From Mycobacterium sp. UM_WGJ (lineage in GTDB: Bacteria > Actinomycetota > Actinomycetes > Mycobacteriales > Mycobacteriaceae), in NCBI RefSeq assembly GCF_000455125.1, contig NZ_AUWR01000071.1, positions 22,468-86,467 on the forward strand: a DNA stretch of 64,000 nt, in the 5' to 3' direction. The notes beneath the pieces are model-generated. The model was given only the letters and a program-made list of their open reading frames with translations, was not told the origin of the DNA and ran no database searches. The position numbers were made by a program, and so were the translations under genes. Positions 10,267-43,600 of the stretch are shown here, piece after piece (position 1 is the first letter of the stretch; each line of letters opens with the position of its first letter).

Positions 10267-11073
10267 ATGTGCGGGCGTTTCGCGGTAACCATCGATCCGG
10301 CGTTGCTGGCTACGCGTATCGATGCGATCAACGAGATGCCGGTCGGCGTCGACGCCGGTCCGAACTACAACGTGGCCCCCACCGACGGCATCGCGACCCT
10401 GGTCAGCCGGCACACCCAGGCGCCGCATGAACCCGGTGGTTCAGCGAGGTTCGACGTAGGAGAGGCGAAGCTGGGACCGCCGCATGAACCCGGTGACCAA
10501 CCGACTCGACGGCTCCGGCGGATGCGCTGGGGACTGGTGCCGCCGTGGACCAAGGCCGGCCCGAACGGGGCGCCGGCCCCGGGCGGCCCATTGTTGATCA
10601 ATGCCCGTGCCGACAAGCTCACCACCTCACCGGCGTTCTCCGCGTCCGCGCAGCGGCGGCGCTGCCTGGTGCCGATGGACGGCTATTACGAATGGCGCGC
10701 AGAGCCCCAAGGTCGCAAGAAACCGTTCTATATCCACGGTGACGGCGCGATGCTGTACGCGGCCGGTCTGTGGTCGGTCTGGCGCCCCGATCGGCTGTCC
10801 GACGCGTTGCTCAGCGTCGTAATCATCACCACCGCGGCCGTCGGGGAACTGGCCGGCATTCACGACCGGATGCCGTTACTGCTGGCCGAAAACCATTGGG
10901 AAGCTTGGCTGGATCCCGACGCTGCGATCGACACCGCGTTGCTGGCCCGCCCGCCGGACGTGGCCGGGATCGCGGTGCGTGAGGTCTCGACCTTGGTCAA
11001 CAGCGTGCGCAACAACTCGCCCGAGCTGATCGCACCGGTCGAGCCGCAACCCGAGCAGGCCTACCTGCTTTAA
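10267..11073 (+). CDS. SOS response-associated peptidase family protein (SRAP; YedK/HMCES)
   Basis: Ortholog of Rv3226c, 268 residues. SRAP proteins crosslink to abasic sites in single-stranded DNA through the N-terminal Cys exposed after Met removal. The start MCGRFAV places Cys2 correctly, so ATG 10267 is secure. Other conserved parts are [16 protein letters not shown], the INARADK segment, [11 protein letters not shown], and HDRMPLLL with the catalytic His. Between SRH and the [10 protein letters not shown] segment it contains about 24 extra residues ([17 protein letters not shown] and following), encoded by a 57-bp repeat element also found in adnA. The stop overlaps the convergent PPE gene by 3 bases. 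Confidence 0.93.
10423..10496. repeat. In-frame 57-bp repeat element, copy 1 (inside SRAP gene)
   Basis: A 57-bp unit begins CCGCATGAACCCGGTGG at 10423, and its first 16 bases recur at 10480 (CCGCATGAACCCGGTG). The period is exactly 57 bp, or 19 codons. It contains the inverted repeat TGAACC-CGGT-GGTTCA. By hand alignment it matches the unit in adnA at about 48 of 57 positions, with the same reading frame. Confidence 0.85.
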
Positions 11074-12344
11074 CGCCCGACCAGACTCCGTTTCTCCAGC
11101 GCGTACTCCTCGGCCGTGAGAATCCCGGCGTTGCGCAGTTCGGCCAGCTCGCGCAGCTCGATGTCGGCGCCCATCAACAGAGCGAACGCCGAGGACGCGG
11201 GCAACTCCGGCAGCTGGTTGGGCCGCGATACCGGCGGCGGGGTGACGGTACCGGCGGTCGGGATGCGGTGCCCCTGGGTGGCGCCGGCCCCGGCTCGCCC
11301 GGCCACGCCGGCTGCGGCCATCCCTGCCGCTGGGATCACCGTCTCACCGGCGGCCACGGCCGGGACAGCGGAGGTGGCGGCGGCCGTACCGGCGGACGCC
11401 AGCGACATACCTATCTGCGGCGCCACCGCCGCCGGTGCGGCCGCCGCCCAGGCCAGCGGCACCGACAGCCCGCTGATCGAGGTCGCCGAGGCCAGATTGG
11501 CCGAGACCGGCAGCGCACCGGCCATCGCAGCACGCAGCAATTCCTGGCCCACCTCGGCGGCGCCCATCGCATCGATCAAGAACGTCCCAAGCGCGTCGAC
11601 GCCGAACGTGCCCATCGAGTCGACAACCAGCTCGACACCGGCGATGCCGACCTCGATTGCGGGCTCGCTGATCAAGATTGCGTCTGCACCAATGGCCTCA
11701 GCCAGGGCGGACGAGGACTCCAGCGCATGGGTCAAAGTGGTGATGACGCCCTCGCCGTGGCCCTCCGAGCTGGTAGCGGCCGCCTGCATGACGGCCGCTG
11801 ACTGAGCCGATGTAGCGGCGGAGTTGGTGGTGCGCGGCGGCTGCCTGAACGGGCTCAGCCGGCCGGCGGCGGCGGCACCGGCGGCATAGCCGTACATGGC
11901 GGTGGCATCCTGGGCCCACATCTCGTAGTAGTGGGCCTCGGTGGTCGCGATAGCGGGTGTGTTCTGGCCCAGGAAGTTGGTCGCGACCAAAGTCATCAGC
12001 AGGCTGCGGTTGGCCGCGACGACCGGCGGCGGCACCGTCATGGCGAAAGCTGACTCGTAGGCGGCGGTGGCGGCGCGGGCCGCGATGGCGGTCTCCTCGG
12101 CCTGGATCGCGGCGGTGTGCAGCCATTGGGCGTACGGTGCTGCGGCGGCGGCCATGGCCCGCGCGCTGGGGCCGGCCCAACCGGAGCCCAGTTCGGTGAG
12201 CACCGAGGCGTAGGCGAGTCCGGCGCTGTGTAGCTCAGCGCCCAGCGCATCCCAGGATGACGCCGCGGCGAGCATGGGGCCGGCGCCCGCGCCGGAATAC
12301 ATCCGGAGGGAGTTGACCTCCGGTGGCAGCAATGCGAAATCCAT
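11070..12344 (-). CDS. PPE-SVP protein with C-terminal SHOCT-like domain (second of pair)
   Basis: A 424-residue protein. The N-terminal PPE domain ([18 protein letters not shown]) is followed by an Ala-rich middle, an SVP-type motif GLSVPLAW, and a tail that does not belong to the PPE family. The last 30 residues ([19 protein letters not shown] and following) match the SHOCT pattern: amphipathic helix, D/NAGILT turn, EE-Y/F, K-x2-L. SHOCT domains are short C-terminal modules proposed to mediate oligomerisation. The gene starts 5 bp after the first PPE stop, and no PE gene is adjacent. The stop overlaps the SRAP gene. Confidence 0.92.
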
Positions 12345-12349
12345 GGGGG

Positions 12350-13690
12350 CTACCGGCCGAGAAGGCGCTGCTTTTCCCGGGTGAACTCTTCTTCGGTGAG
12401 GATCCCGGCATCGCGCAGATCGGCCAGTTCCCGCAGCTCACCGGAGATCCGGGTGATGGGGCCGTGCAATGGACGTACCGGCGGTTTCTTCGGCTTCTCG
12501 GTTTGGTCGCGCTGTTTGACCATGGCGCGCGGTGCCCGTTTGGGGGCGGCTTTCGGGTTCGGGGTGGCGGTGCGACCCCGCCCGAGGCCCGCGGTGGCCC
12601 GGCCGGCCAACCCGGCGGCGCCGATGGCGGCCAGCGGCAGCGCGGAGGCCCCGGCCGCGGCGGCGGGCACTGCAGCTTGCCCGGCGTTGGGCAATGCGGC
12701 GCTGAACTGCTGGATCACGGTGGTCGTCGGCGCCGCGGTGGCCCAGGCCTGCGGCACCGACAGACCGCTGAGCGTGGCCGCTTCACCCATCTCGGCGCTC
12801 ACCGGAGTGAGCGCGCCGGTCAGAGCCATCTCCGGCAGCAGTTCACTCTCGATCTCGCCGACGCCGATCAGGTCGATCCCGAAGGTGCCGGCCGCGTCCA
12901 CGCCGAAGGTACCGGCCGAGTCGATGACGAAAGTGCCGAACAGGCTGGAGGCCAATGCCAGGTAGGACGCCGCCAGCCCGGGCTCCATTGCCGCCGCTGA
13001 ACCGATGGAACTCGTCAGCGTCGCATTGGATCCCGCTGCCGCCGATCCTGGCGCGCCGAGACCCTGCAGTGCCTGGGTGATCGCCGCAGCCGCGGAATCG
13101 GCGTGGCCGCCTGCCGCGGTGGCTGTGGCCTGGCCTACCGCTCCGGCCTGATTCGCCGTGCCGGTGGGATTGGTGGTGCGCGGGGGCTCGGTGAACGGAA
13201 CCAGCCTGGTGGCGGCAGCGGAGCTGGTGGCATAGCCGTACATGGCGGTGGCGTCCTGGGCCCACATCTCGTAGTACTGGGCGTCGGTGGCCGCGATGGC
13301 GGCCGTGTTCTGACCCAGATAGTTGGTGGCGAGCAGCGACATCATCTGAGTGCGGTTGGCGGTGACCGCCGGGGGAGGCACGGTCATCGCGAACGCCGCA
13401 TCGTAGGCGGCGGCCGCCGTGCGGGCCGACGAAGCGGTGTGTTCGGCCTGGGCGGCGGTGGCATGCATCCACTGGGCGTACGGTGCCGCGGCGGCGGCCA
13501 TCGCGGCGGCGCTGGGGCCGGCCCAGCCGGCGGACAGCTCATCGATCATCGAGTCGCAGGCCAGTCCCGCGCTGTTCAGTTCGGCGGCCAGGGCGCTCCA
13601 GGCGGCGGCAGCGGCCAGCAATGGCTGTGCTCCTGCCCCCGAATACATCCGGCTCGAGTTGACCTCTGGTGGCAGAATCGCGAAATCCAT
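12350..13690 (-). CDS. PPE-SVP protein with C-terminal SHOCT-like domain (first of pair)
   Basis: A 446-residue paralog of the next gene. It has the PPE domain ([18 protein letters not shown]), the SVP motif GLSVPQAW, then a basic Pro/Lys-rich linker ([17 protein letters not shown]), and finally the SHOCT-like tail [19 protein letters not shown]. The basic linker is unusual for an exported PPE protein. The ATG at 13690 has no good Shine-Dalgarno of its own. A nine-codon leader ORF with a strong one ends 2 bases upstream, so translation is probably coupled. No PE partner is adjacent. Confidence 0.92.
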
Positions 13691-13692
13691 TG

Positions 13693-13722
13693 TCAGATAG
13701 GCCTGTTATTAGTAGGCGTCAT
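13693..13722 (-). CDS. Nine-codon leader ORF upstream of the PPE-SHOCT pair
   Basis: On the minus strand, an ATG at 13722-13720 follows the strong ribosome binding site CAGGAGG. It encodes MTPTNNRPI and stops at TGA 13695-13693, two bases before the PPE start codon (TGA-CA-ATG). It is out of frame with the PPE gene. The arrangement suits ribosome hand-over (stop-restart) or a short regulatory leader. Alternatively it is simply a displaced ribosome binding site with a chance ATG. Confidence 0.55.
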   Translation of the reverse strand: MTPTNNRPI

Positions 13723-13891
13723 GGTGCCTCCTGAATTTCCCGGTTCGCGCCGGTGCGGCAGGCCACCGGGCGCACTCGGTCTCCGTGACCGTAAACAGTC
13801 AACTTGAAGTGAACCTGAAGAACGCGGCGGTGAGCGCAAGCCGCGCCGGTCGGGCCTCCCCATGACGGCGCGACGGTGTTATCAATGGACC

Positions 13892-14614
13892 ATGGCCGAT
13901 TCCCGGTCCGCCGACCGTCGCGGCGGTACCCCCTTCAGCGTGGGAACGCCGCGGGTTCTGGTGGTCGAGGACTCCGAGGCCATCCGCGAGATGGTCAGCG
14001 AGGCGCTGGCCGACGCCGGCTACCTCACCGACACCCAGCCCGACGGTCACGGTCTGGAGGAGGTGCTGGACGGATTCCGGCCGGACCTGGTGGTTCTCGA
14101 CGTCATGCTGCCGGGACGCGATGGCTTCGCGCTGATGGATGTGATCCTGCGCTGGGGCGAGGTGGGGGTGGTGTTGCTCACCGCGCGTGACGGCTTACCC
14201 GACCGGCTGCGCGGTCTTGACGGCGGCGCCGACGACTACGTGGTCAAGCCGTTCGAGTTGGCCGAGCTGGTGTCGCGGGTCGGTGCGGTGCTCCGTCGGC
14301 GGGGCCGGCTACCGGCTGCCGTGCAGTTCGGGGATCTGATGGTCGATGTCGACGCCGGGGTGGCCGCCCGCTCCGGCACCCCTCTGGGTCTGACCGCCAC
14401 CGAGCTGCGGGTGCTGGTCTACCTTGTCGAACAGCGCGGTCGTATCGTCAGCAGCGCGCAGATCCTTAACGCGGTATGGGGTTATGAGGCATACGACCCC
14501 AACCTGGTGCAGGTCCACATCAGTGGGTTGAGGCAGAAGCTCGAGGCGCACGGACCACGAATCCTGCATACCGTGCGTGGGATCGGCTACCGGCTGGAAC
14601 TTTCGGGTTCATGA
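13892..14614 (+). CDS. OmpR/PhoB-family response regulator
   Basis: A 240-residue DNA-binding response regulator. The receiver domain has the acidic pair at 26-27 (VVEDSEA), phospho-acceptor Asp70 (VVLDVMLPGRDG), Thr97 and Lys119 (DDYVVKPF). A winged helix (about 135-238) carries the TATELRVLVYL helix and the wing GIGYRLE. The ATG at 13892 gives a normal N-terminus, while an ATG at 13862 would add 10 residues. Its stop overlaps the next start as ATGA, so it forms one transcript with its kinase. It lies divergent from the PPE-SHOCT pair and could regulate it (inference from position only). Confidence 0.93.
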   Translation: MADSRSADRRGGTPFSVGTPRVLVVEDSEAIREMVSEALADAGYLTDTQPDGHGLEEVLDGFRPDLVVLDVMLPGRDGFALMDVILRWGEVGVVLLTARDGLPDRLRGLDGGADDYVVKPFELAELVSRVGAVLRRRGRLPAAVQFGDLMVDVDAGVAARSGTPLGLTATELRVLVYLVEQRGRIVSSAQILNAVWGYEAYDPNLVQVHISGLRQKLEAHGPRILHTVRGIGYRLELSGS

Positions 14615-16053
14615 CCGCCACTCCCTCGCTGCGGCGTCGCCTGACGCTGATGGTGCTGGCGTTGCTTGTCATGCTCATGCTGGCGATGGGGCTGGTGATC
14701 AATGCCAGTTTGACCGCGCTGGCGACCCGCAGCGTGCACGAACGACTGGCAGCGGCGACGGCTCGGGCGGATTCCCTCGTAGCACTGGGCATCTCGGCTG
14801 AACAGATGTCCGAACAACTCAACGGCGGCATCATCGCCGCACTCGTAGTCACCGCCGACGGCACCAGCTACGGTGACCCCGCGATCGAGCCCGACGCGAC
14901 CACCGGATCGAAGTTTCCGGCCCCGCCGCTTGAGCCCGACGACACCGCGACAGTCCTGGTGCATCCCCTGGCCAACGGCGACCGGGTGATCCTGGTCGCC
15001 GACACCACGGAGTCCGACGAGACGCTGCGCCGATTGCGGCGCTTGATGATCGAGGCCGGGCTGGGGACCTTGCTACTGGCATCGACCTTGTTGGCCGGAG
15101 CGAGTCGCGCGCTGCTGGCGCCGCTGGATCGTCTCACCGATCTCGCCCGCGACATCACCACGGGGGATCGGGGTCGGCGGCTGCGCCCAGACCGTCCCAG
15201 GACCGAACTGGGTCGGGCGGCAGAAGCTTTCGACGACATGCTCGACGAGCTGGAGAACTCCGAGAAGCGGGCTCAGAGCGCCGCGCAGGGGGCGCAGCGA
15301 GCCGAAGCGGCAGTGCGGCGTTTCCTCGCCGACGCTGCCCATGAGCTGCGCACCCCGATAGCGGGAATGCAGGCCGCTGCCGAGCAGATCGCCGGAAACG
15401 TCGGCGTGCATGTCGGCCAGTCCATCGGTGAGGACGCCATCGAGCCCGAGGTACTTCGCCAGCATCGTCGTGCCAGCCTGTTGTTGACCGAAGCGCGGCG
15501 GGCGACCCGGCTGGTCACCGACATGCTGGACCTGAGCTATATCGATGCCGGATTGCCGTTGGAGCTCAAAGACATCGATCTGGTCGGCATCATCGACACC
15601 CAGCTGGACCGGGCCGCGCTGCTTGCTCCGCAACTCCGGATCGGGCGGACCGGCCTGGACTCAGTGACCGCCGGGGTCGACCCCACGCGCGTCGCGCAGA
15701 TTCTGTCCAACCTGCTCGACAACGCGCGCCGTTACACACCGCCCGGTGGACAGATCAACGTCGACGTCGGCAAAGACAGCGGGGGTGTCGCGGTGGTCGT
15801 CACCGACACCGGCATAGGTGTGAGTGCCGAGGACGCCGAGCGGATCTTCGATCGGCTGGTGCGCCTGGACAGCGCCCGCGGGCGCGACCACGGCGGTGCG
15901 GGACTGGGCCTGCCGATCGCCCGGGCGCTGGCCGAGGCGCACGGGGGGACCCTGACGTGCGTTCCCCGAAACGGGGGCGCCTGCTTCAGACTGGTCATCC
16001 CGACGGGTTCCGGCGGGGCCGTGGTCAGCTCTGCACGTAGCCCGGCGGGTTGA
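14611..16053 (+). CDS. Membrane sensor histidine kinase
   Basis: A 480-residue partner of the preceding regulator, starting in its stop codon (ATGA). Transmembrane helices lie at about 11-33 and 150-168 and enclose an extracytoplasmic sensor of about 115 residues that is acidic and lacks cysteines. A HAMP linker follows (LLAPLDRLTDLARDI), then the dimerisation helix with phospho-acceptor His244 in FLADAAHELRTPI. The ATPase part has the N box (LLDNARRYTP), G1 box (VTDTGIGV) and G2 box (GAGLGLPIA). It ends within the convergent SDR gene, overlapping by 29 bp tail to tail. The stimulus is unknown. Confidence 0.93.
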   Translation: MTATPSLRRRLTLMVLALLVMLMLAMGLVINASLTALATRSVHERLAAATARADSLVALGISAEQMSEQLNGGIIAALVVTADGTSYGDPAIEPDATTGSKFPAPPLEPDDTATVLVHPLANGDRVILVADTTESDETLRRLRRLMIEAGLGTLLLASTLLAGASRALLAPLDRLTDLARDITTGDRGRRLRPDRPRTELGRAAEAFDDMLDELENSEKRAQSAAQGAQRAEAAVRRFLADAAHELRTPIAGMQAAAEQIAGNVGVHVGQSIGEDAIEPEVLRQHRRASLLLTEARRATRLVTDMLDLSYIDAGLPLELKDIDLVGIIDTQLDRAALLAPQLRIGRTGLDSVTAGVDPTRVAQILSNLLDNARRYTPPGGQINVDVGKDSGGVAVVVTDTGIGVSAEDAERIFDRLVRLDSARGRDHGGAGLGLPIARALAEAHGGTLTCVPRNGGACFRLVIPTGSGGAVVSSARSPAG

Positions 16054-16894
16054 CGGTGTCGACCCACAGGTCTACGCCCAGGTCGCTGCCGGGCACACAG
16101 TCATAGACCGACAGGTCGGTGACGCCGGAGTCCACCAGCACGTCCTCGCACAGCAAAGAGTTGCCGGTGTATTCGCGGGCCGGCTTGGTCACGATGGCGT
16201 ATGCGGCGTCGGCGTAGATCTCCGGGGTGCGAGAGCGTGCCATCGCCTCGTCTCCGCCGAGCAGGTTCTGTACCGCGGCGGTCGCGATCATGGTGCGCGG
16301 CCACAGCGTGTTGGAGGCGATCCCGTGCTGGCGCAGTTCCTCGGCCATCCCGAGGGCGCACAGCGTCATCCCGAACTTGGCCATCATGTAGGCGGTGGGC
16401 TTGAGCCATTGAGGCTCCAGCCGGATCGGCGGGGACAGCGTCAGGATGTGCGGGTTGTCGCGGCCGATCATGTGCGGGATGCAGGCCTGCGACACCGCGT
16501 AGGTGCCGCGCACCTCGATGCCGTTCATCAGGTCGAAGCGTTTCAGCGGCACTTCGAGGATCGAACCCAGGTTGATCGCCGAGGCATTGTTCACGCAGAT
16601 GTCGATGCCGCCGAACCGCTCGACGGTGGCGGCCACGGCCCCTGCCACGGAGTCCCCGTCACGGATGTCACCGACGATCGGCAGTGCCTGCCCGCCGGCC
16701 TCTTCGATTTCGGCGGCCGCGGTATAGATCGTGCCGTCGAGCTTCGGGTGCGGTTCGGCGGTCTTGGCGATCAGCGCGACGTTGGCGCCGTCGCGGGCGG
16801 CGCGCTTGGCGATCGCCAGGCCGATACCGCGGCTGGCGCCCGAGATGAACATGGTCTTGCCGGAGAGGGGTCCTGTGTTGGCCATGTTGGTCAC
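16025..16894 (-). CDS. Short-chain dehydrogenase/reductase (Rv3224-like)
   Basis: A 289-residue SDR oxidoreductase of the HSDL2-like branch. The cofactor motif SGASRGIG at 18-25 replaces the usual TGxxxGIG. NNAS is at 102-105, and the catalytic Ser154, Tyr169 and Lys173 lie in LSPP and YMMAK. The C-terminus ends in a Pro/Gly-rich tail as in Rv3224. Two in-frame ATGs (16894 and 16885) are both plausible. The substrate is not established, and the family mostly acts on acyl or steroid-type alcohols. Confidence 0.92.
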   Translation of the reverse strand: MTNMANTGPLSGKTMFISGASRGIGLAIAKRAARDGANVALIAKTAEPHPKLDGTIYTAAAEIEEAGGQALPIVGDIRDGDSVAGAVAATVERFGGIDICVNNASAINLGSILEVPLKRFDLMNGIEVRGTYAVSQACIPHMIGRDNPHILTLSPPIRLEPQWLKPTAYMMAKFGMTLCALGMAEELRQHGIASNTLWPRTMIATAAVQNLLGGDEAMARSRTPEIYADAAYAIVTKPAREYTGNSLLCEDVLVDSGVTDLSVYDCVPGSDLGVDLWVDTVNPPGYVQS

Positions 16895-17036
16895 CCTATG
16901 CCGCCGATGACCTCGCTCATCGCCGGATGGCCGGGGTCGCCAGGGCGGGGGATCGTCGGGGCGGTCCGACGCTTCGCGCCGAAATCGGGCGGGTCGACTC
17001 CCGGGAAGGATTGATAAAAGCAGTATATTAATGAGC

Positions 17037-17052
17037 GAAATACAAGTATTTC
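17037..17052. promoter_or_regulatory. Candidate operator upstream of pcaD
   Basis: A perfect 7-bp inverted repeat, GAAATAC-aa-GTATTTC, in an AT-rich island (17016-17085) that stands out from the surrounding GC-rich DNA. A second imperfect palindrome, CAGAATATCAATACTG, begins directly after it. The island also holds a 16-codon ATG frame (17031-17081) with no ribosome binding site, which I do not call as a gene. It probably holds the promoter and operator of the pcaD operon. Confidence 0.5.
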
Positions 17053-17085
17053 AGAATATCAATACTGGTCATTACTGTTGAAAAC

Positions 17086-17151
17086 GTGACCATTTCCGTC
17101 GATATCGGGCCCGAGCGCGACCCGGCCGCCGTCTTCGAGGCCGGGCGATGA
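17086..17151 (+). CDS. Short ORF overlapping the pcaD start (leader or gene remnant)
   Basis: A 21-codon frame starting at GTG 17086 (MTISVDIGPERDPAAVFEAG), with its TGA overlapping the pcaD ATG as ATGA. The coding style is normal. The sequence reads like the first residues of a larger protein, possibly SRPBCC-type, cut off after 20 codons. It may be a translational leader or a deletion scar. Confidence 0.35.
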   Translation: MTISVDIGPERDPAAVFEAGR

Positions 17152-17918
17152 GCGCCGTCGCGGTGCACACGGTGATCACCGGTCGCGAAGGCGGTCCGGT
17201 CCTGCTGCTGTCCAACTCGCTGGGATCGACCCACCGGATGTGGGACGCCCAGATCGGCGCGCTGCAGGACCGGTTCCAGGTGGTGCGCTACGACACTCGT
17301 GGGCACGGCCAATCCCCGGTCCCGGACGGGCCGTACACCATCGACGACCTGGCCGACGACGTGATCGCACTGCTTGACCGGCTCGGTGTGGAGCGGGCAC
17401 ACCTGGTCGGACTGTCGCTGGGCGGGATGACCGCGATGCGGGTCGCGGCCCGCAACCCCGAGCGGGTCGACCGGCTGGCCGTGCTGTGCACGGCCGCGCA
17501 CCTGCCACCGGCCACCGCCTGGCAGGAACGGGCCGCGACGGTCCGCGCCCGCGGTGCCGGCGCGGTCGCCGCCGCGGTGGTACAGCGGTGGTTCACCCCG
17601 CAATACCTTGCGGCGCACCCCGACGTCCGTGCCGAGGGCGAAGCCATGGTCGCCGCGACACCCGCGCAGGGCTACGCCGGCTGCTGCGAGGCGATCGCCG
17701 GCCTGGACGTCCGCGGCGACCTGGCCGTCATCACCGCCCCGACCCTGGCCGTCGCCGGCGCTGACGACCCCGCCACCCCGCCGGCCAAGCTTGAAGAGAT
17801 CGCGGCCGGCGTCAAAAACGGTCGGCTGCTGGTCGTTTCGCACGCCGCTCACCTGGCCAACGCCGAACAACCCGAGATCATCACGCCAGCCCTCATTGAA
17901 CACCTGGAGCGCCCATGA
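17148..17918 (+). CDS. pcaD: 3-oxoadipate enol-lactonase (alpha/beta hydrolase)
   Basis: This enzyme hydrolyses beta-ketoadipate enol-lactone to beta-ketoadipate, the step where the catechol and protocatechuate branches have merged. It has 256 residues, right for PcaD. Seen: the LLLSNSLGSTHRMWD oxyanion region, VRYDTRGHGQS, the nucleophile elbow GLSLGG with Ser90, an Asp near 206 (AGADDPATP) and His235 (SHAAHLA). The next gene starts inside its 3' end (ATGAGCCTG at 17915), so it is cotranscribed with the CoA-transferase genes that would use its product. Confidence 0.85.
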   Translation: MSAVAVHTVITGREGGPVLLLSNSLGSTHRMWDAQIGALQDRFQVVRYDTRGHGQSPVPDGPYTIDDLADDVIALLDRLGVERAHLVGLSLGGMTAMRVAARNPERVDRLAVLCTAAHLPPATAWQERAATVRARGAGAVAAAVVQRWFTPQYLAAHPDVRAEGEAMVAATPAQGYAGCCEAIAGLDVRGDLAVITAPTLAVAGADDPATPPAKLEEIAAGVKNGRLLVVSHAAHLANAEQPEIITPALIEHLERP

Positions 17919-19526: not shown

Positions 19527-19533
19527 GGCCGCC

Positions 19534-19824: not shown

Positions 19825-19865
19825 CCGGTGGACGCGACTATGGCCGCTTTGGCCTATCGTGGCGA

Positions 19866-22179: not shown

Positions 22180-22196
22180 CGCGCCAGGATACGGCC

Positions 22197-22224
22197 GGGA
22201 AATAGTGCCATGGCCAACGCTGTT
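22197..22224 (+). promoter_or_regulatory. Candidate SigH-dependent promoter of sigH
   Basis: GGGAAAT at 22197-22203 and TGTT at 22221-22224 with a 17-bp spacer. This fits the known SigH promoter pattern (GGGAAY, 16-18 bp, CGTT) at -35/-10, about 70 bp before the chosen sigH start. Autoregulation of sigH is established in M. tuberculosis. Confidence 0.6.
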
Positions 22225-30794: not shown

Positions 30795-30799
30795 CGGGG

Positions 30800-30898
30800 C
30801 CATCAGCCCAGCGGTGATCGCAAGCGCGGCGGAGCCGGGCGCCGCGGGCCGCCGCCATTAACCCAGCGGTGATCGCAAGCGCGGCGGAGCCGCCGCCA
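30800..30898 (-). repeat. Tandem repeat after Rv3212-like gene (GGCTCCGCCGCGC family)
   Basis: Two tandem copies of a unit containing GTGATCGCAAGCGCGGCGGA (plus strand, at about 30813 and 30869). Each is followed on the minus strand by CCGCTGGG and a stop codon like the end of the adjacent gene. The true stop (TGA, 30901-30899) is thus followed by a TAA and a TGA in the copied context, suggesting duplication of the gene end with the element. The core is shared with 38226-38331. Confidence 0.8.
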
Positions 30899-32134
30899 TC
30901 AGCCCAGCGCGACGACGGCGTCGCCGCGCTGCTCCAATACCGTCGGGCCCGACACCGCCGGGAACACGGTCGAGACCCCGGGCGGGCGGCTCACCGGGAT
31001 GATGCGTTCCGGCGCGCCGGTGTTCTGGTCGAAGACGCCGACCCCGTCGGTCACCGGTATCAGGAGGCGATCGGCCATCCGTACTGCCGGCCCCAACGGA
31101 ACCGCGGCACCCGACGCCGGAATGGTGTAGCGGTAGGTCAGCGTTCCGGAGTCGAACACCATCACCGCATCGCCGGTCCACCAGCAGATCAACCCGGTGG
31201 GCCGCGATACCGGCAGTGCGGCGCTGGCGGGGCTGGGTTTGGCCGGCAGCATGGTCTTGGCGATCGTGGTGCCGGTCTGGTCGACGACCTCGATACGAGG
31301 CTGCGGAGTGGGCAGATAGAGCGCGGTGTTGGTGCCGGCGTCGGAGTCGGTCACCGCGAGCACCCGGGCGCCGGAGTCCGCGGTCACTCCGCGTTCGGCG
31401 ACGTGCTGGGTCTCCGGCTCGTCTTCTTCCTTGCCCGCGCGCAGCAGCGTCAGTTGCAGATCGGACTGGCCCGCGCAGGACTCCAGCACCGATACCGCCG
31501 AGGAGGCCGCCGCTGCCGAGACCAGGGCGCAGCCCTGCCCTCGGCCGCGCGCCGAAGGTTTCACCCGAGCGTCGATCTCCCCGTAAGACATCACTCGCAC
31601 CAGATCTGAACGCCACAGTTCCAGGCGGGTGGCGCCGGCTGAGAGCACCGCGCTGCCCTCAGAGGAGACCCGTACGGCCCGGTCGGCGTAGCTGGTGCGG
31701 GCCGGTCCCCGCAGGCCGTCGGCAGCGACGACCGCGCTGACCTGGCCACACCCGCGGGAATCGGGGTAGACCGCGACGGCGTAGCGGTAGATCCACGACA
31801 CCGCGCACAGGTCGACGTCGCGGGAGTAGCTCCAGCGCTCCTCGCCGGTGGCCGGGTCACGACCACTCATCCGCGGACCGTCACCGGTGATCACCGTGCC
31901 GGAGACCACCACGGGCGCCCAGGTTGCCGGGCTGGCCGCTGTCCACAGCTGCGACAGCGCCGCGGGCACCATCGCCGCCGACGGGGGATTGGTCGCCGAG
32001 TCCGACGCCGACCGGCTGATCGTGGCGCGGGCATCGCTGGTCCACCAGATGACCACTCCGACGACAACGATCACGACCGCGATCAAGGCCGCCGCGACCA
32101 GATCACCGGAGGTGCGGCGCTCGGGTCGTACCAT
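30899..32134 (-). CDS. Membrane-anchored Ala/Val-rich protein (Rv3212-like), likely beta-propeller
   Basis: A 411-residue protein with one N-terminal membrane helix (LVAAALIAVVIVVVGVVIWW, about 12-31) and a long extracytoplasmic part. PQQ/beta-propeller-like blades are suggested by SGRDPATGEERWSYSRDVDLC, RIEVVDQTGTTIAK, MVFDSGTLTYRYTI and VGVFDQNTGAPERII. Five cysteines may form disulfides. No catalytic motif was seen. Cell-envelope location is inferred; function is unknown. Confidence 0.8.
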   Translation of the reverse strand: MVRPERRTSGDLVAAALIAVVIVVVGVVIWWTSDARATISRSASDSATNPPSAAMVPAALSQLWTAASPATWAPVVVSGTVITGDGPRMSGRDPATGEERWSYSRDVDLCAVSWIYRYAVAVYPDSRGCGQVSAVVAADGLRGPARTSYADRAVRVSSEGSAVLSAGATRLELWRSDLVRVMSYGEIDARVKPSARGRGQGCALVSAAAASSAVSVLESCAGQSDLQLTLLRAGKEEDEPETQHVAERGVTADSGARVLAVTDSDAGTNTALYLPTPQPRIEVVDQTGTTIAKTMLPAKPSPASAALPVSRPTGLICWWTGDAVMVFDSGTLTYRYTIPASGAAVPLGPAVRMADRLLIPVTDGVGVFDQNTGAPERIIPVSRPPGVSTVFPAVSGPTVLEQRGDAVVALG

Positions 32135-34725: not shown

Positions 34726-35744
<1,019 letters not shown>

Positions 35745-35877: not shown

Positions 35878-36912
35878 GTGACCTACGACCCGGGGCGGAG
35901 CGGCGGCGGTCGAGCCCCGGTGCTGCGGGATCGCTTCCGCGAGCCATTGCGCGCCCAGCGTGACCCGCTCGCCGCCGGTGCCGGGCGACTGCGGTCCGAC
36001 CGTGATGTGCACCGCCAGTGGCGCAAGCAGACCTGGCTGGGCAGGTTCGTCTCCACCTACGGGTGGCGCGCGTACGCGCTGCCGGTGCTCATGGCTCTCA
36101 CCGTCGTGGTGGTGTATCAGACGGTGACCGGTACTGGAGTGCGCACCCAGTCCGCCGATGACACGGTTCAGGGGCCGCCGACGATCGGATCGGCGGGCAC
36201 CTCGATCATCGGCGCACCACCGCGCGGCCTCACCGAGTTCGACGTCAACCTGCCCACCGGTGTGCTGCCCAACGGCGGCCCGTTCACCGAAGCCGGCGAC
36301 ATGTCCTGGCACGTCATCCCGGGCATCGAGCCGGAATTCGGGCAGGGCACCGAGAAGGTGTTCGCCTACACCATCGAAGTGGAGAACGGCATCGACACCA
36401 CCGCGTTCGGCGGCGACGAGGCATTCGCCCGGATGGTCGACCAAACCCTGCGTAACCCCAAGGGATGGACGCATACCCCGCAGATCGGGTTCGTACGGGT
36501 CGACGCCAGCAGCCCGATCACCCCCGATTTCCGGATCTCGTTGACGTCGCCGATCACGGTCCGGGAGGGCTGCGGCTACGAGATTCCGCTGGAGGCGTCC
36601 TGCTATAACCCGGCATACGGGGCCAAGTCGGAGCCGCGGGTATTCATCAACGAAGCCCGCTGGGTTCGCGGTGCCGTGCCCTTCCAGGGCGACATCGGGT
36701 CCTACCGGCAGTACCTGATCAACCATGAGGTCGGCCACGCCATCGGCTACCAGCACCACGAACCGTGCGACAAGCAGGACGGGCTGGCGCCGGTGATGAT
36801 GCAGCAGACGTTCGGCACCTCCAACGACGACGCGGCGAAGTTCGACCCGGACTGGGTCAAGCCCGACGGAAAGACCTGCCGCTTCAACCCCTGGCCGGCT
36901 CCGATTGCCTGA
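35878..36912 (+). CDS. DUF3152 protein, membrane-anchored metzincin-type peptidase (Rv3207c-like)
   Basis: 344 residues from the GTG at 35878. A cytoplasmic N-terminus rich in Arg is followed by a membrane helix (YALPVLMALTVVVVYQTV) and an outer domain. The zinc motif HEVGHAIGYQHH fits H-E-x2-H-x2-G-x2-H of metzincins, and a Met-containing segment (APVMMQQTF) follows as a possible Met-turn. Cys pairs flank the site. Protease activity is predicted only. Confidence 0.88.
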   Translation: MTYDPGRSGGGRAPVLRDRFREPLRAQRDPLAAGAGRLRSDRDVHRQWRKQTWLGRFVSTYGWRAYALPVLMALTVVVVYQTVTGTGVRTQSADDTVQGPPTIGSAGTSIIGAPPRGLTEFDVNLPTGVLPNGGPFTEAGDMSWHVIPGIEPEFGQGTEKVFAYTIEVENGIDTTAFGGDEAFARMVDQTLRNPKGWTHTPQIGFVRVDASSPITPDFRISLTSPITVREGCGYEIPLEASCYNPAYGAKSEPRVFINEARWVRGAVPFQGDIGSYRQYLINHEVGHAIGYQHHEPCDKQDGLAPVMMQQTFGTSNDDAAKFDPDWVKPDGKTCRFNPWPAPIA

Positions 36913-37012
36913 GCCGGTCGGGCTGCCTTCGGGAAGCTTCGCGCGCGGTTTGTCGTTGCCCCCACCAGCTGCTGTGATGGGTGGGCGGACCCGACGTTGA
37001 GGAGATTGCCAG

Positions 37013-38206
37013 GTGCCGAGATCACTGCCGCCGCTGGTGGAGCCGGCCGGCGAGCTGACCAGGGAGGAAGTAGCGCGCTACAGCCGCCACTTGATCATTC
37101 CCGATGTCGGCGTGCAGGGGCAGAAGCGACTCAAGAACGCTCGGGTGCTGGTGATCGGTGCCGGTGGATTGGGTGCGCCGACACTGCTGTATCTGGCCGC
37201 CGCCGGCGTCGGAACCCTCGGGATTGTCGACTTCGACATCGTCGAGGAGTCGAACCTGCAGCGCCAGGTCATCCACGGTGTCTCTGACATCGGCCGCACC
37301 AAGGCCGAAAGCGCCCGGGACTCGATTGCCGAGGTCAACCCGCTCTTACGCGTGCAGCTGCACCAGGTACGGCTGGACCGCTCCAACGCCGTCGACCTGT
37401 TCAGCCAGTACGACCTGATCCTGGACGGCACCGACAACTTCGCCACCCGCTACCTGGTCAACGACGCCGCGGTGTTGGCGCACAGGCCCTACATCTGGGG
37501 CTCGATCTATCGCTTCGAGGGCCAGGTGTCGGTGTTCTGGGAGGACGCCCCGGCCGATGAGGCCGGCAATGAGCGCGGTCTCAACTACCGCGACCTGTAT
37601 CCCGAGCCCCCGCCGCCAGGCATGGTGCCGTCGTGCGCCGAGGGCGGAGTGCTCGGCGTGTTGTGCGCCTCGATCGGGTCGGTGATGGGCACCGAGGCGA
37701 TCAAGTTGATCACCGGTATCGGAGAATCGCTGCTGGGACGGCTGATGATCTACGACGCCTTGGAGATGAGCTACCGCACCATTGCGATCCGCAAGGATCC
37801 CGCCACACCGGCGATCACCGAATTGGTCGACTACGACGCGTTCTGCGGCGTAGTTCCCGAGGATGACGCCGCTGCGGCCGCCGGGTCCACGATCACTCCC
37901 GCCGAGCTGCGCGAGCTGCTGGACTCCGGGCAACTGCTGGCCCTGATCGATGTGCGCGAGCCGGGAGAATGGGCGATCAACCGCATCGAGGGCGCCCAGT
38001 TGGTCCCGCAGTCGACGATCAACACCGGTGAGGGGCTGGCAAAACTCCCGCAGGACCGAATGTCGGTGCTGTACTGCAAGACCGGGATCCGTTCGGCGCA
38101 AGCCCTAGCCACCCTGAAGAAGGCCGGCTTTGCCAACGCGGTCCACCTGCAGGGCGGAATTGTGGCGTGGGCCAAGCAGATGCAGCCCGATATGGTCATG
38201 TATTAG
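37013..38206 (+). CDS. moeZ: Adenylyltransferase/sulfurtransferase MoeZ (MoeB1)
   Basis: A 397-residue E1-like plus rhodanese fusion that adenylates and thiolates sulfur-carrier proteins (molybdopterin, CysO and thiamin-type carriers). The ATP-binding GAGGLGAPTLLYLAAAGVG is followed by DFDIVEESNLQRQ, LDGTDNFATRYLVND, and the C-terminal rhodanese with the persulfide Cys in LYCKTGIRS. GTG start with a GAGGAG site. Ortholog of Rv3206c. Confidence 0.95.
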   Translation: MPRSLPPLVEPAGELTREEVARYSRHLIIPDVGVQGQKRLKNARVLVIGAGGLGAPTLLYLAAAGVGTLGIVDFDIVEESNLQRQVIHGVSDIGRTKAESARDSIAEVNPLLRVQLHQVRLDRSNAVDLFSQYDLILDGTDNFATRYLVNDAAVLAHRPYIWGSIYRFEGQVSVFWEDAPADEAGNERGLNYRDLYPEPPPPGMVPSCAEGGVLGVLCASIGSVMGTEAIKLITGIGESLLGRLMIYDALEMSYRTIAIRKDPATPAITELVDYDAFCGVVPEDDAAAAAGSTITPAELRELLDSGQLLALIDVREPGEWAINRIEGAQLVPQSTINTGEGLAKLPQDRMSVLYCKTGIRSAQALATLKKAGFANAVHLQGGIVAWAKQMQPDMVMY

Positions 38207-38225
38207 CGCTATAGACCCGGTGCAC

Positions 38226-38331
38226 GGTGCTTTTGGCGGTGACCCGCCGCGCCCGGCTCCGCCGCGCTCGCGATCACCGGTGCTTTTGGCGGTGACCCGC
38301 CGCGCCCGGCTCCGCCGCGCTCGCGATCACC
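38226..38331 (+). repeat. Exact 53-bp tandem duplication after moeZ
   Basis: Two identical 53-bp units (38226-38278, 38279-38331) beginning GGTGCTTTTGGCGGTGACCC and ending GCGATCACC. The core CGCCCGGCTCCGCCGCGC is shared with the repeat at 30800-30898. The second unit ends 17 bp before the next gene. Confidence 0.92.
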
Positions 38332-38348
38332 GCGGTTAGTCTTATCGC

Positions 38349-39203
38349 GTGACCATCGAGCCGCCGCCCGAACATGTGCTGGCGACGTTCGGTATTCGCA
38401 ACGTTTCGCCCACACCGCTTGGTGCCGGCTGGGAAGACGGCTGGAAGTGCGGGGAAGTGGTCCTGTCGATGGTCGCCGACCATGCCAGGGCCGCGTGGTC
38501 GGCTAAAGTCCGCGAGACCCTGTTCGCCGACGGCATCCGCCTGGCCCGCCCCGTGCGGTCCACCGACGGACGTTATGTGGTGTCGGGCTGGCGCGCGGAC
38601 ACCTTCGTCGGTGGCAGCCCCGAGCCGCGCCACGACGAGGTGGTGTCGGCGGCGGTTCGGCTGCACGAGGCCACCTCCAAGTTGGAGCGGCCCCGATTCT
38701 TGACCCAGGCACCGGTGGCGCCGTGGGCCGACGTCGACGTGTTCATCGCCGCGGACCGGGCGGCCTGGGAGGAACGGCCGTTCGCCTCGCTGCAGGCCGG
38801 TGCACGATTGGCTCCGGGCTCGGTGGACGGTCAGCGGTCGATCGACCTGATCAACCAGCTGGCCACTTTGCGCAAGCCCACCAGGAGTCCCAGCCAGTTG
38901 GTGCACGGCGACCTATACGGCACGGTGCTGTTCTCCGGCGCCGCGGCGCCCGGCATCACCGACATCACGCCCTACTGGCGGCCCGCCTCGTGGGCTGCCG
39001 GGGTAGTGGTGGTCGACGCCCTGTCGTGGGGTGACGCCGACGACGGGCTGATCGAACGGTGGGAGACGCTGCCCGAGTGGCCGCAGATGTTGCTGCGCGC
39101 GTTGATGTTCCGTCTTGCCGTACATGCGCTGCATCCGCGCTCCACCGAGGAGGCGTTCCCCGGTCTGGCCCGCACTGCGGCGCTGGTCCGCCTGGCGCTC
39201 TAG
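38349..39203 (+). CDS. Aminoglycoside phosphotransferase-like protein, TIGR02569 type (Rv3205c-like)
   Basis: A 284-residue actinobacterial protein with a weak kinase-like fold: LVHGDLYGTVLFS resembles the HGD-x-N catalytic loop with a Tyr-Gly-Thr replacement, and GITDITPYWRPASWA the metal-binding segment. Key catalytic residues are incomplete, so kinase activity is doubtful. Start GTG at 38349, close behind the 53-bp repeats. Confidence 0.85.
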   Translation: MTIEPPPEHVLATFGIRNVSPTPLGAGWEDGWKCGEVVLSMVADHARAAWSAKVRETLFADGIRLARPVRSTDGRYVVSGWRADTFVGGSPEPRHDEVVSAAVRLHEATSKLERPRFLTQAPVAPWADVDVFIAADRAAWEERPFASLQAGARLAPGSVDGQRSIDLINQLATLRKPTRSPSQLVHGDLYGTVLFSGAAAPGITDITPYWRPASWAAGVVVVDALSWGDADDGLIERWETLPEWPQMLLRALMFRLAVHALHPRSTEEAFPGLARTAALVRLAL

Positions 39204-39235
39204 CTTTCTCGGCTTTGGCGCCGAATGCGGATCCG

Positions 39236-39532
39236 TCAGAACCGGTGTCGCAGCGTGCGCAGATCCACCTTCCCGCCGACGGCCAGGACTCCTTCGGCGC
39301 GAAGACGTTCCAGTTGCTCGGTGCGCAAGTGATCCGCCGGCCGTCCCGACGCTGGGAGCACCCGGTGCCAGGGCAGATCCGCCCCGTCGATCCGCAGAAT
39401 CCAGCCCACGATGCGGGGACTGGAAAGCCCTGCCGCGGAAGCGACATCGCCATATGTGGTGACCCGGCCGGCGGGCACACTGATGATCAGCGCACGCACC
39501 ACCTCGACCTGTTCGTCGGTGACGGCCGCCAC
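39236..39532 (-). CDS. Alkyltransferase-like protein (ATL; MGMT family without Cys)
   Basis: A 98-residue DNA-binding domain of the O6-alkylguanine transferase family. The catalytic Cys of PCHRV is Trp here (PWHRVLPASG), the mark of ATL proteins, which bind O6-alkylguanine and flag it for nucleotide excision repair. It has VPAGRVTTYGDVA and the arginine-finger region. The GTG at 39532 is the first usable start, 11 bp after the lipV stop. Ortholog of Rv3204. Confidence 0.88.
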   Translation of the reverse strand: MAAVTDEQVEVVRALIISVPAGRVTTYGDVASAAGLSSPRIVGWILRIDGADLPWHRVLPASGRPADHLRTEQLERLRAEGVLAVGGKVDLRTLRHRF

Positions 39533-39543
39533 GGACTGCGCCC

Positions 39544-40326
39544 CTAGCGCCGGGCCAGCTGCGCCCGGATCACCGCGGCAGCCTCGGCGGGACGGGCCTG
39601 GTCGACCATGTGATTGCAGTCGAAGTCGACCAGCTGGAAGTTCGCGCCCAGCCGATCCCGCAAACCGTCGGTGAGCGTCGCTGTCACATACGGCGGCGAG
39701 GTGCGGGTGGCCCGCACGACGGTGGTCGGCGTGGACTGCGGCAGCACGACCGCGCGGGCCAACTCGCTCCAGTACGACATCACCGCGGGCACGCTGATAC
39801 GCCAACCGAAGCGGCCCGTGGGCAGCGCGACCAGATGCTCCTCGAGTTCGTTGTCGAGCAGGTCGGGATCCACGTCGGACCAGGCACCGTTCTCTTTCTC
39901 GGCGCGCGCCTCCGCGGGATCGGGGTAGTCGGGGGAGGCCAGCATCGCGGCGGCGATCGTGGCCATCCACTCGCCGTCCAGGCCGATCGCCGGGTCGAGC
40001 AGGATCAGCGCGTCGACGAGGTCGGGGCGTGCTGCGGCCAGATGCAGCGCAATCGCACCGCCGAAGGAATGCGCGACCACCGGAACCGGGCCGTCCGCGG
40101 TGTCCTCCAGCAGCGCCGCCAGCGCTGCGACGTTGGCGTCGATGCTCCACGGGGCCGCCCACGACGAGTGGCCGTGGCCGATCAGGTCTGGTGCGGCGAC
40201 GGCGATGTCGGGCAGCTGGTCGGCCACGTAGCGCCAGCGGGCCCCGTGACCGGTCAGCCCGTGGACCGCCAGCATCTGGACCGGCCCGGACGGTCCGTAG
40301 CGGTGCACATGCAGGAGATCGCTCAC
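39544..40326 (-). CDS. lipV: Alpha/beta hydrolase, LipV-like esterase
   Basis: 260 residues from the GTG at 40326. It has the HGLTGHGARW oxyanion loop, PDLIGHGHSSW, the nucleophile elbow AHSFGG, and the acid and His in FDCNHMVDQ. Ortholog of Rv3203, described as a lipase/esterase. An ATG further upstream (40425) would add 33 residues unlike the family. It is followed by the ATL gene. Confidence 0.87.
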   Translation of the reverse strand: MSDLLHVHRYGPSGPVQMLAVHGLTGHGARWRYVADQLPDIAVAAPDLIGHGHSSWAAPWSIDANVAALAALLEDTADGPVPVVAHSFGGAIALHLAAARPDLVDALILLDPAIGLDGEWMATIAAAMLASPDYPDPAEARAEKENGAWSDVDPDLLDNELEEHLVALPTGRFGWRISVPAVMSYWSELARAVVLPQSTPTTVVRATRTSPPYVTATLTDGLRDRLGANFQLVDFDCNHMVDQARPAEAAAVIRAQLARR

Positions 40327-40611
40327 GTCGCTGATGCTGCCAGCCGGGGCATTCGGTCGGCGGGTCGGCCTGGGTAACCCGGTGCTGAATGTCCCCAAGT
40401 CCAGGGAAGACCCTGTGTCGCTCACCTATGTCGCCGTTGGCGGCGGAGCCGCAATGTCGCTGCTAGAGGCCGAGTTTGAACAGGGTGAGTACTAGGGGGG
40501 TGATCGCTGGAGTCGTCGCTGCCGGTGCTGCTGTGGCGTTGGCCGGTCGCGCCGCGCCGACACAGCCCGCATCTGGCCGGAGTTGTCAGACCCCGGTGAT
40601 GTGATGGCGGG
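40327..40611. other. Divergent region between lipV and adnA
   Basis: About 285 bp. It must hold promoters for both genes. A minus-strand frame ending ITPLVLTLFKLGL (40472-40510) is hydrophobic but has no start codon. I see no operator or hairpin I can defend. Confidence 0.4.
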
Positions 40612-43600
40612 GTGAATGAGCGCTGGACACCCGAAGCGGGCGCCGTGCTGGACCCGGCGGCGCGCGGCGTCCTGCGGGTGCTCGGCGGACCCGGGACCGG
40701 CAAGACCAGTCTGCTGCTCGACACGGCGGTCGCCCACGTCGCCGCCGGCGTGGACGCGAACTCGGTGCTGCTGCTCACGGGTTCGGGCCGGCTTCCCGCT
40801 GCGGACCGCGGAGCCCTGACTGCGACGTTGCTGGCTGCCGCCGGACCCGACGCCGGCCAGGCGATCCGGGAATCTGTCGTGCGCACCGTGCACGGCTACG
40901 CCTTCGCGGTGCTGCAGCGCGCCGCGCGGCGGGCCGAGGCCGCGCCGCCGCGGCTGGTCACCGGGGCTGAGCAGGACAGCGTGATCCGCGAACTGCTCGC
41001 CGGTGACGGAGCCGCAGCCTGGCCGCCGTCGTTGCATGCGGCGCTGGCCACCGACGGTTTCGCCACCGAACTGCGGGACCTGATGGCGCGCTGCGCCGAA
41101 CGCGGCGTCGACCCGGCCGAGCTGGTCCGGCTCGGCAAGCGGTGCCGCCGCCCGGAGTGGGCCGCCGCCGGCCGCTTCGCCCGGCAGTACGAGCAGGTGA
41201 TGCTGCTGCGCGCCGCGGTCGGTACCGCGGCACCCCAGGCGACCACGCCGGCGTTGGGCGCGGCCGAGTTGGTCGGGGCCGCGCTGGAGGCGTTCGCGAC
41301 TGACCCGGACCTGCTCAACGACGAACGCAGCCGAATCCGGCTGCTGCTGGTCGACGACGCCCAGCAACTCGACCCGCAGGCGGCCCGGTTGGTGCGGGTT
41401 CTCGCCGCCGGCGTGCACCGCACGGTGATCGCGGGCGACCCTGATCAGGCGGTGTTCGGCTTCCGCGGAGCCGAACCCACCGTCCTGCTGACCGACGACG
41501 CCCAACCCGGCGGAGCCGGGGTGCCGGTGGTGACGCTGACGACGTCGCACCGTTGCGCCCCGGCGGTGGCCAACGCCATCAGCGCCGTCACCGGGCGGCT
41601 GCCCGGGACCAGCGCCACGCGTCGCATCGAGGGCACCGGACCCGACGCCGGCGCGGTGAGCGTGCGTACCGCAGCCAGCAGCCACGCTGAAGCGGCCCTG
41701 ATCGTGGACACTTTGCGGCGCGCCCACCTGATCGACGGGGTGCCGTGGTCGCAGATGGCGGTGATCGTCCGTTCGGTGCCGCGAGCGGCCGCGCGGCTGC
41801 CCCGCGCCCTGGCCGCTGCCGGCATCCCGGTCACTTTGCCGGCCAGCGGGGGGTTGCTGGCCGAACAGCCCGCGGTGGCCGCCCTGCTCACGGTGCTGGA
41901 GTGCACCGCAGACGCCGTGGACGGGCCCCGGGCGCTGGCCTTGCTCAGTGGGCCGATCGGGCGAGTGGACCCGATCTCGCTGCGGCAACTGCAACGCACA
42001 CTGCGCCGCGGTACGGCCAGCCCGGAGATCCCGCTTGAACCGGGCGGTTCAACGAGGCTCGACGCAGGAGAGGCGAAGTTGGAATCGCCGCTTGAACCCG
42101 GCGGTTCAACGAGGCTCGCCGCAGTGCTCACCGGTGTTCCCGGTGCGCTGCCGGCCGCGCACGCCCGCGCACTGCGCCGGGTCCGCGGGGTGCTGCAGGC
42201 CGCTGCTCGCAGTCACGCCGACGGCCGCGATCCGCACCACACGCTGTGGCAGGCCTGGAACCGGTCCGGTCTGCAACAACGCTGGCTGTCAGCCGCCGAG
42301 CGCGGTGGTACCGCCGGCGCTCAAGCCGGCCGGGACCTGGACGCGGTGACCGCGCTGTTCGATCTCGCCGAGCAGTATGTGGCGCGCACTGCCGGTGCCA
42401 CCCTGACCGGTCTGGTCGAATACGTCACCGCGATGCAGCTGGCGGCGCCCCGCACCGAGTCGGTGACGGGCACGGAGGCGGTCGGTGTGCTGAGCGCACA
42501 CGCCGCGCTCGGGCGCGAGTGGGATCTGGTGGTGGTCGCCGGAGTCCAGGAGGGCTTGTGGCCCAACACCGTTCCGCGCGGCGGCGTGCTGGGAACCCAG
42601 CGGCTCCTGGACACCCTGCATGGCTTCGGGGAAGAGGTCTCGGCTCGGGCCCCGCTGCTTGCCGAAGAGCGGCGGCTGCTGGTGGCGGCGCTGGGCCGGG
42701 CACGGCGCCGACTGGTGATCACCGCCGTCGATGGCGAGGGGGACGGCAGCGCCGAAGAACAGATCCCGTCGGAGTTCTTCGTCGAACTCGCAGCCTGCGC
42801 CACCGGCGAGGGGGCAACGGCGCCGTCTCCACCGGTGGTGGCTCCGCCGGTGCTGTCCGCGGCCGGGCTGGTGGGCCGGCTGCGGGCTGTGGTCTGTGCA
42901 CCGGAGAACGCGGTAAACGATTCCGAACGCGCTGACGCGGCAACGCAATTGGCGCGACTTGCCCGAGCCGGGGTGCCGGGTGCCGATCCGCGGAGCTGGC
43001 ATGGCGTGGTGCCGTTGAGCACCGAGAAGCCACTTCGACAACCCGGCGACGGACCGGTCACTCTGTCGCCGTCGGCTCTGCAAAGCCTGCTGGACTGTCC
43101 GCTGCGCTGGCTGGCCGAACGCCACGGCGGAACCGACGGCCGCGACCTGCGCTCGACGATCGGATCGGTGATACACGCACTGGTCGCCGAATCGGCGGGC
43201 AACCCGCAAGAACTGCAGGCCGAGTTGGACCGGGCATGGGAGCAGTTGCCGTTCACGTCGCAGTGGTACTCGGCCAACGAACTCGACCGCCATCGCGCCA
43301 TCCTCGAGACGTTTCTGGCATGGCGCGCCCAAACCCGGGGCGAACTCACCGAAGTCGGCATCGAGGTCGGTTTCGACGGCGTGATCGACGCTGGCGAGGA
43401 CGGGGTTCGGCTGCGCGGTCGGATCGACCGAGTCGAACGCGACGCGGCCGGCCGGCTGGTAGTCGTCGACGTCAAGACCGCGAAGACGCCGGCCAGCAAG
43501 GACGACGCACAACAGCACGCCCAGTTGGCGGTCTACCAGCTGGCGGTGGAAGCCGGGCTCGTTGGGCCCGACGAGCAGCCCGGCGGGGGCCGGCTGGTCT

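Follow-up and report, generated by a model that had tools for sequence, protein, structure and literature searches.

A 57-bp palindromic repeat dispersed in Mycolicibacter genomes, with copies in frame inside protein-coding genes

Most descriptions of palindromic repeats that invade protein-coding genes come from Rickettsia and Wolbachia, and we know of no account of how they move. The Rickettsia palindromic elements (RPEs) are about 150 bp long, fall into ten families and sit in frame in Rickettsia genes, and similar cases elsewhere have been supposed (excerpts of PMC10969869). Here we analysed a 64,000-nucleotide stretch of Mycobacterium sp. UM_WGJ (contig NZ_AUWR01000071.1, positions 22,468 to 86,467; hereafter the window), in which a preliminary description had pointed out a 57-bp palindromic repeat in two DNA-repair genes, the SRAP gene and adnA. 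The results showed that this repeat forms a dispersed family, which in the searches made reaches high copy number in a single mycobacterial clade only, Mycolicibacter, with copies in frame inside genes, local expansion into arrays, recent gain or loss, and frequent steps of 57 bp.

Several other systems come close to this family. The in-frame palindromes reviewed in the available text of PMC2996958 are from Rickettsia, Wolbachia and an archaeon. In Mycobacterium tuberculosis, leuA carries VNTR4155, a variable-number tandem repeat (VNTR) with an in-frame 57-bp period and an extra 9 bp, which occurs in 2–21 copies and is seemingly dispensable (excerpts of PMC2704214). Repetitive extragenic palindromes (REPs) with a GTAG or CGTC tag measure 20–40 bp and bear the tag at one end, and the CGTC type mostly forms head-to-head dimers without a dedicated transposase; tagged REPs are sometimes intragenic, many of them in repair genes, recBCD and uvrD included. 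The same source names untagged REP-like families for M. tuberculosis, and the terms "mycobacter" and "actinobacter" are absent from its main text (PMC3733652). A 57-bp tandem duplication is also mentioned at dop (excerpt of PMC12817950). The preliminary description knew of no mycobacterial precedent; the in-frame 57-bp repeat of leuA, as given in the excerpts of PMC2704214, is one, but its peptide is unlike that of the present family. No description of the Mycolicibacter family was found in the open-access literature, of which larger result sets were viewed in part.

Within the window, one full unit lies on the forward strand of each gene, at positions 10423–10479 in the SRAP gene (HMCES/YedK family, 268 aa, 10267–11073, + strand) and at 42031–42087 in adnA (a subunit of the AdnAB helicase-nuclease, 1064 aa, 40612–43806, + strand; structure matches 7sjr_A and 6ppj_A). 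As had been claimed, the two units are alike (48 of 57 bases identical) and share the frame of their host genes, adding EPGGSxRxDxGEAKL peptides; the peptide is absent from the solved AdnA chains matched. The count of two full units per gene did not hold, each array consisting of one full period and a partial second unit, of which 16 matching bases are present at the right junction in SRAP (10480–10495, +) and 37 bp with two mismatches in adnA (42088–42124, +). The foldable TGAACC-N4-GGTTCA is present at 10428, 42036 and 42093, but across the family its TGAACC half falls in a variable linker and the conserved fold is elsewhere. That fold is a 47-nt hairpin, GGCGGTTCAGC...GCTGGGACCGCC, which together with a linker of about 10 nt gives the period of 57. 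The sequence of its core is GGCGGTTCAGCGAGGCTCGACGNAGGAGAGNCGAAGCTGGNACCGCC; with the position taken from the window and the fold from the consensus, it occupies 10435–10481 in the SRAP copy and 42043–42089 in the AdnA copy (both +). A suspected third copy turned out to be a truncated 5' part of the unit (2074–2098, +) at the 5' edge of a kinase open reading frame (ORF, 2019–3749). The 19-nt 5' half, searched with at most one mismatch, matched three times in the window (2077–2095, with one mismatch, and twice in the AdnA array) and not at all in 50 Markov surrogates. Tandem Repeats Finder at its default threshold did not report the SRAP and AdnA repeats in the window.

The further copies anticipated in the genome were readily found. 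A 28-nt core with up to three mismatches gave 78 matches in the genome of Mycobacterium sp. UM_WGJ, and the reversed-pattern control gave 0; when flanks were taken, at a slightly different threshold, the same genome yielded 59 sites with 79 units. In the genus sample, 27 of 396 genomes matched, 22 of them with 9–126 copies and five with one or two, and the single matches in G228 and G387 carry three mismatches and may be chance. Among the 80 named matches listed, 79 belong to Mycolicibacter and the remaining one to Mycobacterium sp. Across the order, with up to two mismatches, 6 of 397 genomes matched, all from the same genus (1 of 85 genera), and the other 84 genera sampled gave no match. The sole match in one 6.0-Mb genome (G117) is one full copy (L063:1498–1566), and such a lone full copy in a copy-poor genome suggests occasional transfer. 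Carriage by phages or plasmids was considered and dropped, with no match in viral contigs (exact pattern), plasmids, or phages at the settings used. In the Mycobacterium sp. UM_WGJ assembly, contigs C12, C1 and C28 end in or near units (L027, L050 and L276), so draft assemblies may undercount the family.

The loci collected around the matches hold 263 arrays with 424 units, 155 arrays being single and 108 tandem. The units are arranged head to tail, with a spacing of 57 bp in 135 of 161 cases and of 55, 56 or 58 bp in the rest. A variable loop base is uniform across all units in 96 of the 108 multi-unit arrays (27 expected), and neighbouring units are 98% identical compared with 92% between arrays. 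Since units are homogeneous within arrays, the arrays seem to grow locally from one founder. Variation in number and internal homogeneity would also fit ordinary VNTRs, each with a separate slippage origin at its own locus; such an origin is very unlikely, given the same sequence at 59 sites of one genome and the existence of filled and empty alleles, and we reject it for dispersal while keeping slippage as an account of array growth. The stem is paired in 91% of cells across 163 distinct first units, as opposed to 23–48% when the 3' partner is slid, and folding z-scores were −3.0 and −5.1 for two forward-strand examples and −1.5 and −4.6 for two reverse ones. Size variants also occur: at L052:1430–1620 a tandem unit has a larger loop and measures about 79 bp, and in L312 a mini-unit is missing most of its loop. 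Both variants retain the palindromic ends.

Copies inside genes were assessed with a codon model trained on the window, excluding arrays with less than 330 bp of flank. This test placed 63 of 256 arrays within coding sequence and in frame: 47 in the main 19-residue reading, eight and seven in two reverse frames, and one in a third forward frame. None of the 63 uses either of the two frames that a stop interrupts in the consensus. Spacing inside genes was 57 bp in 18 of 18 cases, compared with 117 of 143 elsewhere (P = 0.046). The genome of Mycobacterium sp. UM_WGJ has 15 in-gene sites, 14 from the automatic test plus SRAP, which the test missed and which was counted from the ortholog alignment. 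The preliminary emphasis on DNA-repair genes holds for SRAP and adnA but does not extend to the rest of this genome, where they are two of the 15 in-gene sites. Pfam or PDB matches identified as further hosts an AMP-binding enzyme, a C-N hydrolase, an acetoacetate decarboxylase, a KshA-type Rieske oxygenase, a DsbH-type protein and an AraC-type regulator; one of the seven host proteins scanned had no family match. In a MurD host, the peptide fills a clean 19-residue gap relative to the sequence of the solved structure. Other hosts, judged from reading the sequence and not from a search, would be IrtA, LCP, glycosyltransferase and SRPBCC proteins. With a genome so densely coding, the share of sites in genes, about a quarter, suggests counter-selection or a bias in targets. 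The added peptides are presumably neutral.

Comparison of orthologs showed that 25 of 30 SRAP loci and 26 of 29 compared AdnA loci are without a unit, the window copy being among the three AdnA loci that have one. The residues are thus not shared as ancestral sequence across these orthologs, and with further copies in the genome as well, neither of the two outcomes that the preliminary description named as refuting came about. Their being ancestral and lost in relatives has a negligible probability: some AdnA sites keep element-like scraps that would agree with it, but the unit-free loci include those of family-free genomes and the 84 other genera sampled had no match, and we consider it refuted as a general account. 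The SRAP gene carries one unit in G000, two in G130, three in G069, one degenerate copy in G174 and an apparent remnant in G372. At AdnA, locus L215 has the unit and L226 has none; their flanks nearly match and the difference is a clean +57 bp at a native CCGGCG. The lack of a unit in L226 makes it probable that AdnA was hit repeatedly. In G022 the AdnA site (L210) is empty too; it reads GGGTTCATGCGGCG, the exact reverse complement of the family linker, and looks as if an inverted copy had once been present.

A close pair of genomes, G130 and G069, allowed 41 of the 55 G130 sites to be compared; the other 14 had no two-flank match among the G069 stretches taken. The flanks of the sites are 87–100% identical, mostly about 96%, and on the G069 side 40 stretches were taken for 41 places found by search, two of these places sharing one stretch. 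Fifteen sites carry the repeat in G130 but are empty in G069, 18 changed in unit number, and eight are unchanged. The length difference is exactly 57 bp at 11 of the 15 filled-against-empty sites (58, 60, 63 and 141 bp at the others), and 12 of the 18 changes in unit number are multiples of 57.

The junctions were profiled in 17 events, each selected because 57 divides its length difference, comprising the 11 close-pair events and six from wider pairs picked by name, with one filled site counted against two relatives; being pre-selected on divisibility, the profile by itself cannot show the 57-bp rule. In these events the empty allele mostly equals the left flank up to about position −7 joined to the right flank from about +2. 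The zone between carries a CCCGGCG consensus at both junctions, and the empty allele tends to CCGGCG, a native CCGGCG being present at one such site in the unit-free relative (L075 for L248). For 148 single copies, the two junctions were compared position by position against shuffles: agreement between left and right was in excess (z above 2) at eight of ten positions within the stretch −9 to 0 and at one of 12 outside it, but most non-consensus junction bases are not common to both sides. The junctions show neither a clean target duplication nor independence, and tests for a canonical target duplication gave a partial signal only. We infer an exchange within a short shared motif, most simply a template switch that copies one donor period.

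On this evidence we somewhat favour the view that the family is a non-autonomous mobile palindromic repeat, spread by short-homology copying of one 57-bp period into a CCCGGCG-like motif. Copies typically have the same short motif, about CCCGGCG, on either side, and a new copy would arise when a site already similar to the motif receives one period of a donor copy, through template switching at short homologies or an exchange of a like kind. Copying one period into a pre-existing motif would typically give a net gain of 57 bp and leave the motif on both sides. Arrays would then expand and contract locally, mostly by 57-bp steps, and since 57 is 3 × 19 the frame would be kept wherever the step is 57. 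Selection would leave copies outside genes or in tolerant loops, in stop-free frames. The copying into a short shared motif would need no dedicated transposase.

An alternative is a miniature inverted-repeat transposable element (MITE), moved by a DDE transposase from another place in the genome; insertion would duplicate a short target at CCGGCG-like sites, and slippage would form the arrays later. The inverted-repeat core, the covariation of left and right junctions over about nine positions and the presence/absence polymorphism all fit this account, which we nevertheless regard as unlikely. The right side has about 9 nt beyond the palindrome, which makes the ends asymmetric, and in several close-pair events (L248, L318 and L308) the motif of the filled allele differs from that of the empty allele. 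Nor was a longer element with the same ends present in the collected loci, which span only 1.5 to 8 kb each, whole genomes not having been searched for paired ends. The idea of a longer autonomous parent was also pursued by a 5'-half search of G069 and abandoned: the 120 matches (up to two mismatches) do not exceed the 126 full cores (up to three mismatches). In the collected loci, 39 of 440 5' halves are without a nearby 3' half, and none of them pairs with a lone 3' half further off.

Site-specific recombination offers another route, in which a folded strand or a 57-nt circle would pass in and out at a 6–7 bp CCCGGCG core by means of a tyrosine recombinase, much like an integron cassette. 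In the 17 selected events, exchange is limited to a short core that the two junctions have in common with the target; this and the exact 57-bp gain or loss at 11 of 15 close-pair sites speak for such recombination. A core so frequent in a GC-rich genome offers little specificity, however, and we judge this route improbable. A REP or REPIN moved by RAYT, a Y1 HUH transposase, is exceedingly unlikely in spite of the short hairpin, the high copy number and the intragenic REPs in the literature (excerpts of PMC3733652). The Y1 transposase domain (Y1_Tnp, PF01797) was found in 8 of 44 genomes searched, but among the 22 copy-rich genomes only G086 and G181 matched, once each, and the other 20 had none. 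Y1 thus does not drive the family, and its absence from 20 of 22 copy-rich genomes largely refutes this origin. In addition, the hairpin ends carry no GTAG or CGTC tag (consensus of 163 distinct first units), and the units run head to tail.

Several results weigh against the copying of single periods that we favour. Six of the 18 changes in unit number between G130 and G069 are not multiples of 57. In 20 wider pairs (flank identity 73–94%), two differences were exact multiples of 57, eight came within 3 bp, and ten did neither; the SRAP insertions exceed 57n by 9 to 12 bp when set against empty orthologs. The left-right agreement of the junctions also fits a worn target duplication of 8–9 bp, as from a transposase. 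None of the insertions was traced to a donor, nor did the analysis identify an enzyme. Some sites scored as empty hold element-like scraps (AdnA of G069; L314; L315) and may be losses, so that the direction, gain or loss, is unsettled for some sites and is inferred for most single events. Compensatory stem changes numbered 48 cells compared with 11–36 in slid controls; given this modest excess, selection on the fold through stem covariation is not claimed. Finally, arrays across species are partly orthologous, and the counts and P values given above are therefore not all independent.

Elsewhere in the window, relatives carry units at places that are empty here. The UvrD-like ORF downstream of adnA (43794–47078, AdnB by position) has an empty site at 45930–45969 (+), where a Mycolicibacter algericus locus (L134) has two units. 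Units also lie inside open frames of this ORF in G069 (C1:3432497–3432736) and G130 (C11:24426–24515). With units in the AdnB-position ORF of relatives as well, AdnA, AdnB and SRAP have all been hit in the Mycolicibacter clade. A second empty site lies at 22184–22221 (−), where the M. longobardus locus L103 has two units.

The window also contains a second GC-rich family, GTGATCGCRAGCGCGGCGGAGCCGGGC, with periods of 51–55 bp, at 30799–30910 (+) and 38225–38332 (−); the collected loci hold 12 arrays and 17 units of it, and in its ends it resembles the 57-bp family. Around the latter copy (38184–38342), the relatives L086, L131 and L156 have whole or fragmentary copies of the 57-bp family, and this intergenic site looks as if it received both families. 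One frame of the second-family window copies resembles the leuA VNTR4155 peptide of M. tuberculosis, with scores of 53 and 52 against a best shuffle of 51 (0 of 500 shuffles as high for each). The 57-bp family did not match that peptide (61 of 500 shuffles scored as high); a relation to leuA is thus supported for the second family and unsupported for the 57-bp family. A wider proposal, doubtful but possible in our view, would take these observations together: with the same motif at both ends, the repeat would need no transposase of its own, since a single short-homology template switch would copy exactly one 57-bp period into any similar motif, and this multiple-of-three quantum would let a selfish sequence enter coding DNA in frame. 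The 57-bp family and the second family, similar at their ends (GCGGT... and ...ACCGCC-AT-), would then form two branches of a single superfamily in mycobacteria, and the known in-frame mycobacterial VNTRs would be settled copies.

Set beside the described systems, the family works like RPEs, as the preliminary description had proposed; descent from RPEs is not claimed. That likening is supported by dispersed copies, filled and empty orthologous sites, unrelated in-frame hosts and hairpin potential. RPEs and the Wolbachia palindromic elements are likewise short dispersed palindromes, in frame in unrelated genes, with a recurrent peptide that is apparently tolerated and with presence/absence between related genomes. 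The 57-bp family matches them as a dispersed many-copy palindrome (78 matches, control 0) and in its in-frame insertion into unrelated genes with absence from orthologs (63 of 256 arrays; SRAP, AdnA and MurD alignments). It differs from the single RPE copies of about 100–150 bp in its 57-bp period, with two or more units in 108 of 263 arrays, and in being often tandem, with a frequent 57-bp step, in a GC-rich actinobacterium. With leuA VNTR4155, as described in the excerpts of PMC2704214, it shares a mycobacterial host, a 57-bp period, an in-frame 19-residue peptide and variable tandem copy number, which changed at 18 of the 41 compared sites; the leuA peptide, compared as peptide, is different, and no genome-wide mobility is described in those excerpts. 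Like the tagged REPs of PMC3733652 (in its available parts), it consists of small many-copy hairpins that are sometimes intragenic, those REPs often being in repair genes and the CGTC type lacking a dedicated transposase; unlike them, it is untagged and runs head to tail. The PARCEL elements of Mollicutes are also palindromic coding repeats with peptide output and tandem arrangement, but they occupy membrane- or surface-protein genes and encode amphipathic domains, whereas the 57-bp family is found in varied enzymes and is mostly intergenic (available text of PMC2996958). What sets the family apart within this known kind is its frequent 57-bp step, tandem arrays and motif-bounded insertion taken together.

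These results describe an abundant, recently active family in cultivable bacteria, with 33 of 41 compared sites varying in presence or in number of units between two close genomes, and the mobilisation of protein-invading palindromes thereby becomes testable by resequencing. The clade provides natural SRAP alleles with 0, 1, 2 or 3 added peptides. The repeat may serve as a strain-typing marker for the M. terrae group, and it offers a possible origin for in-frame mycobacterial VNTRs.

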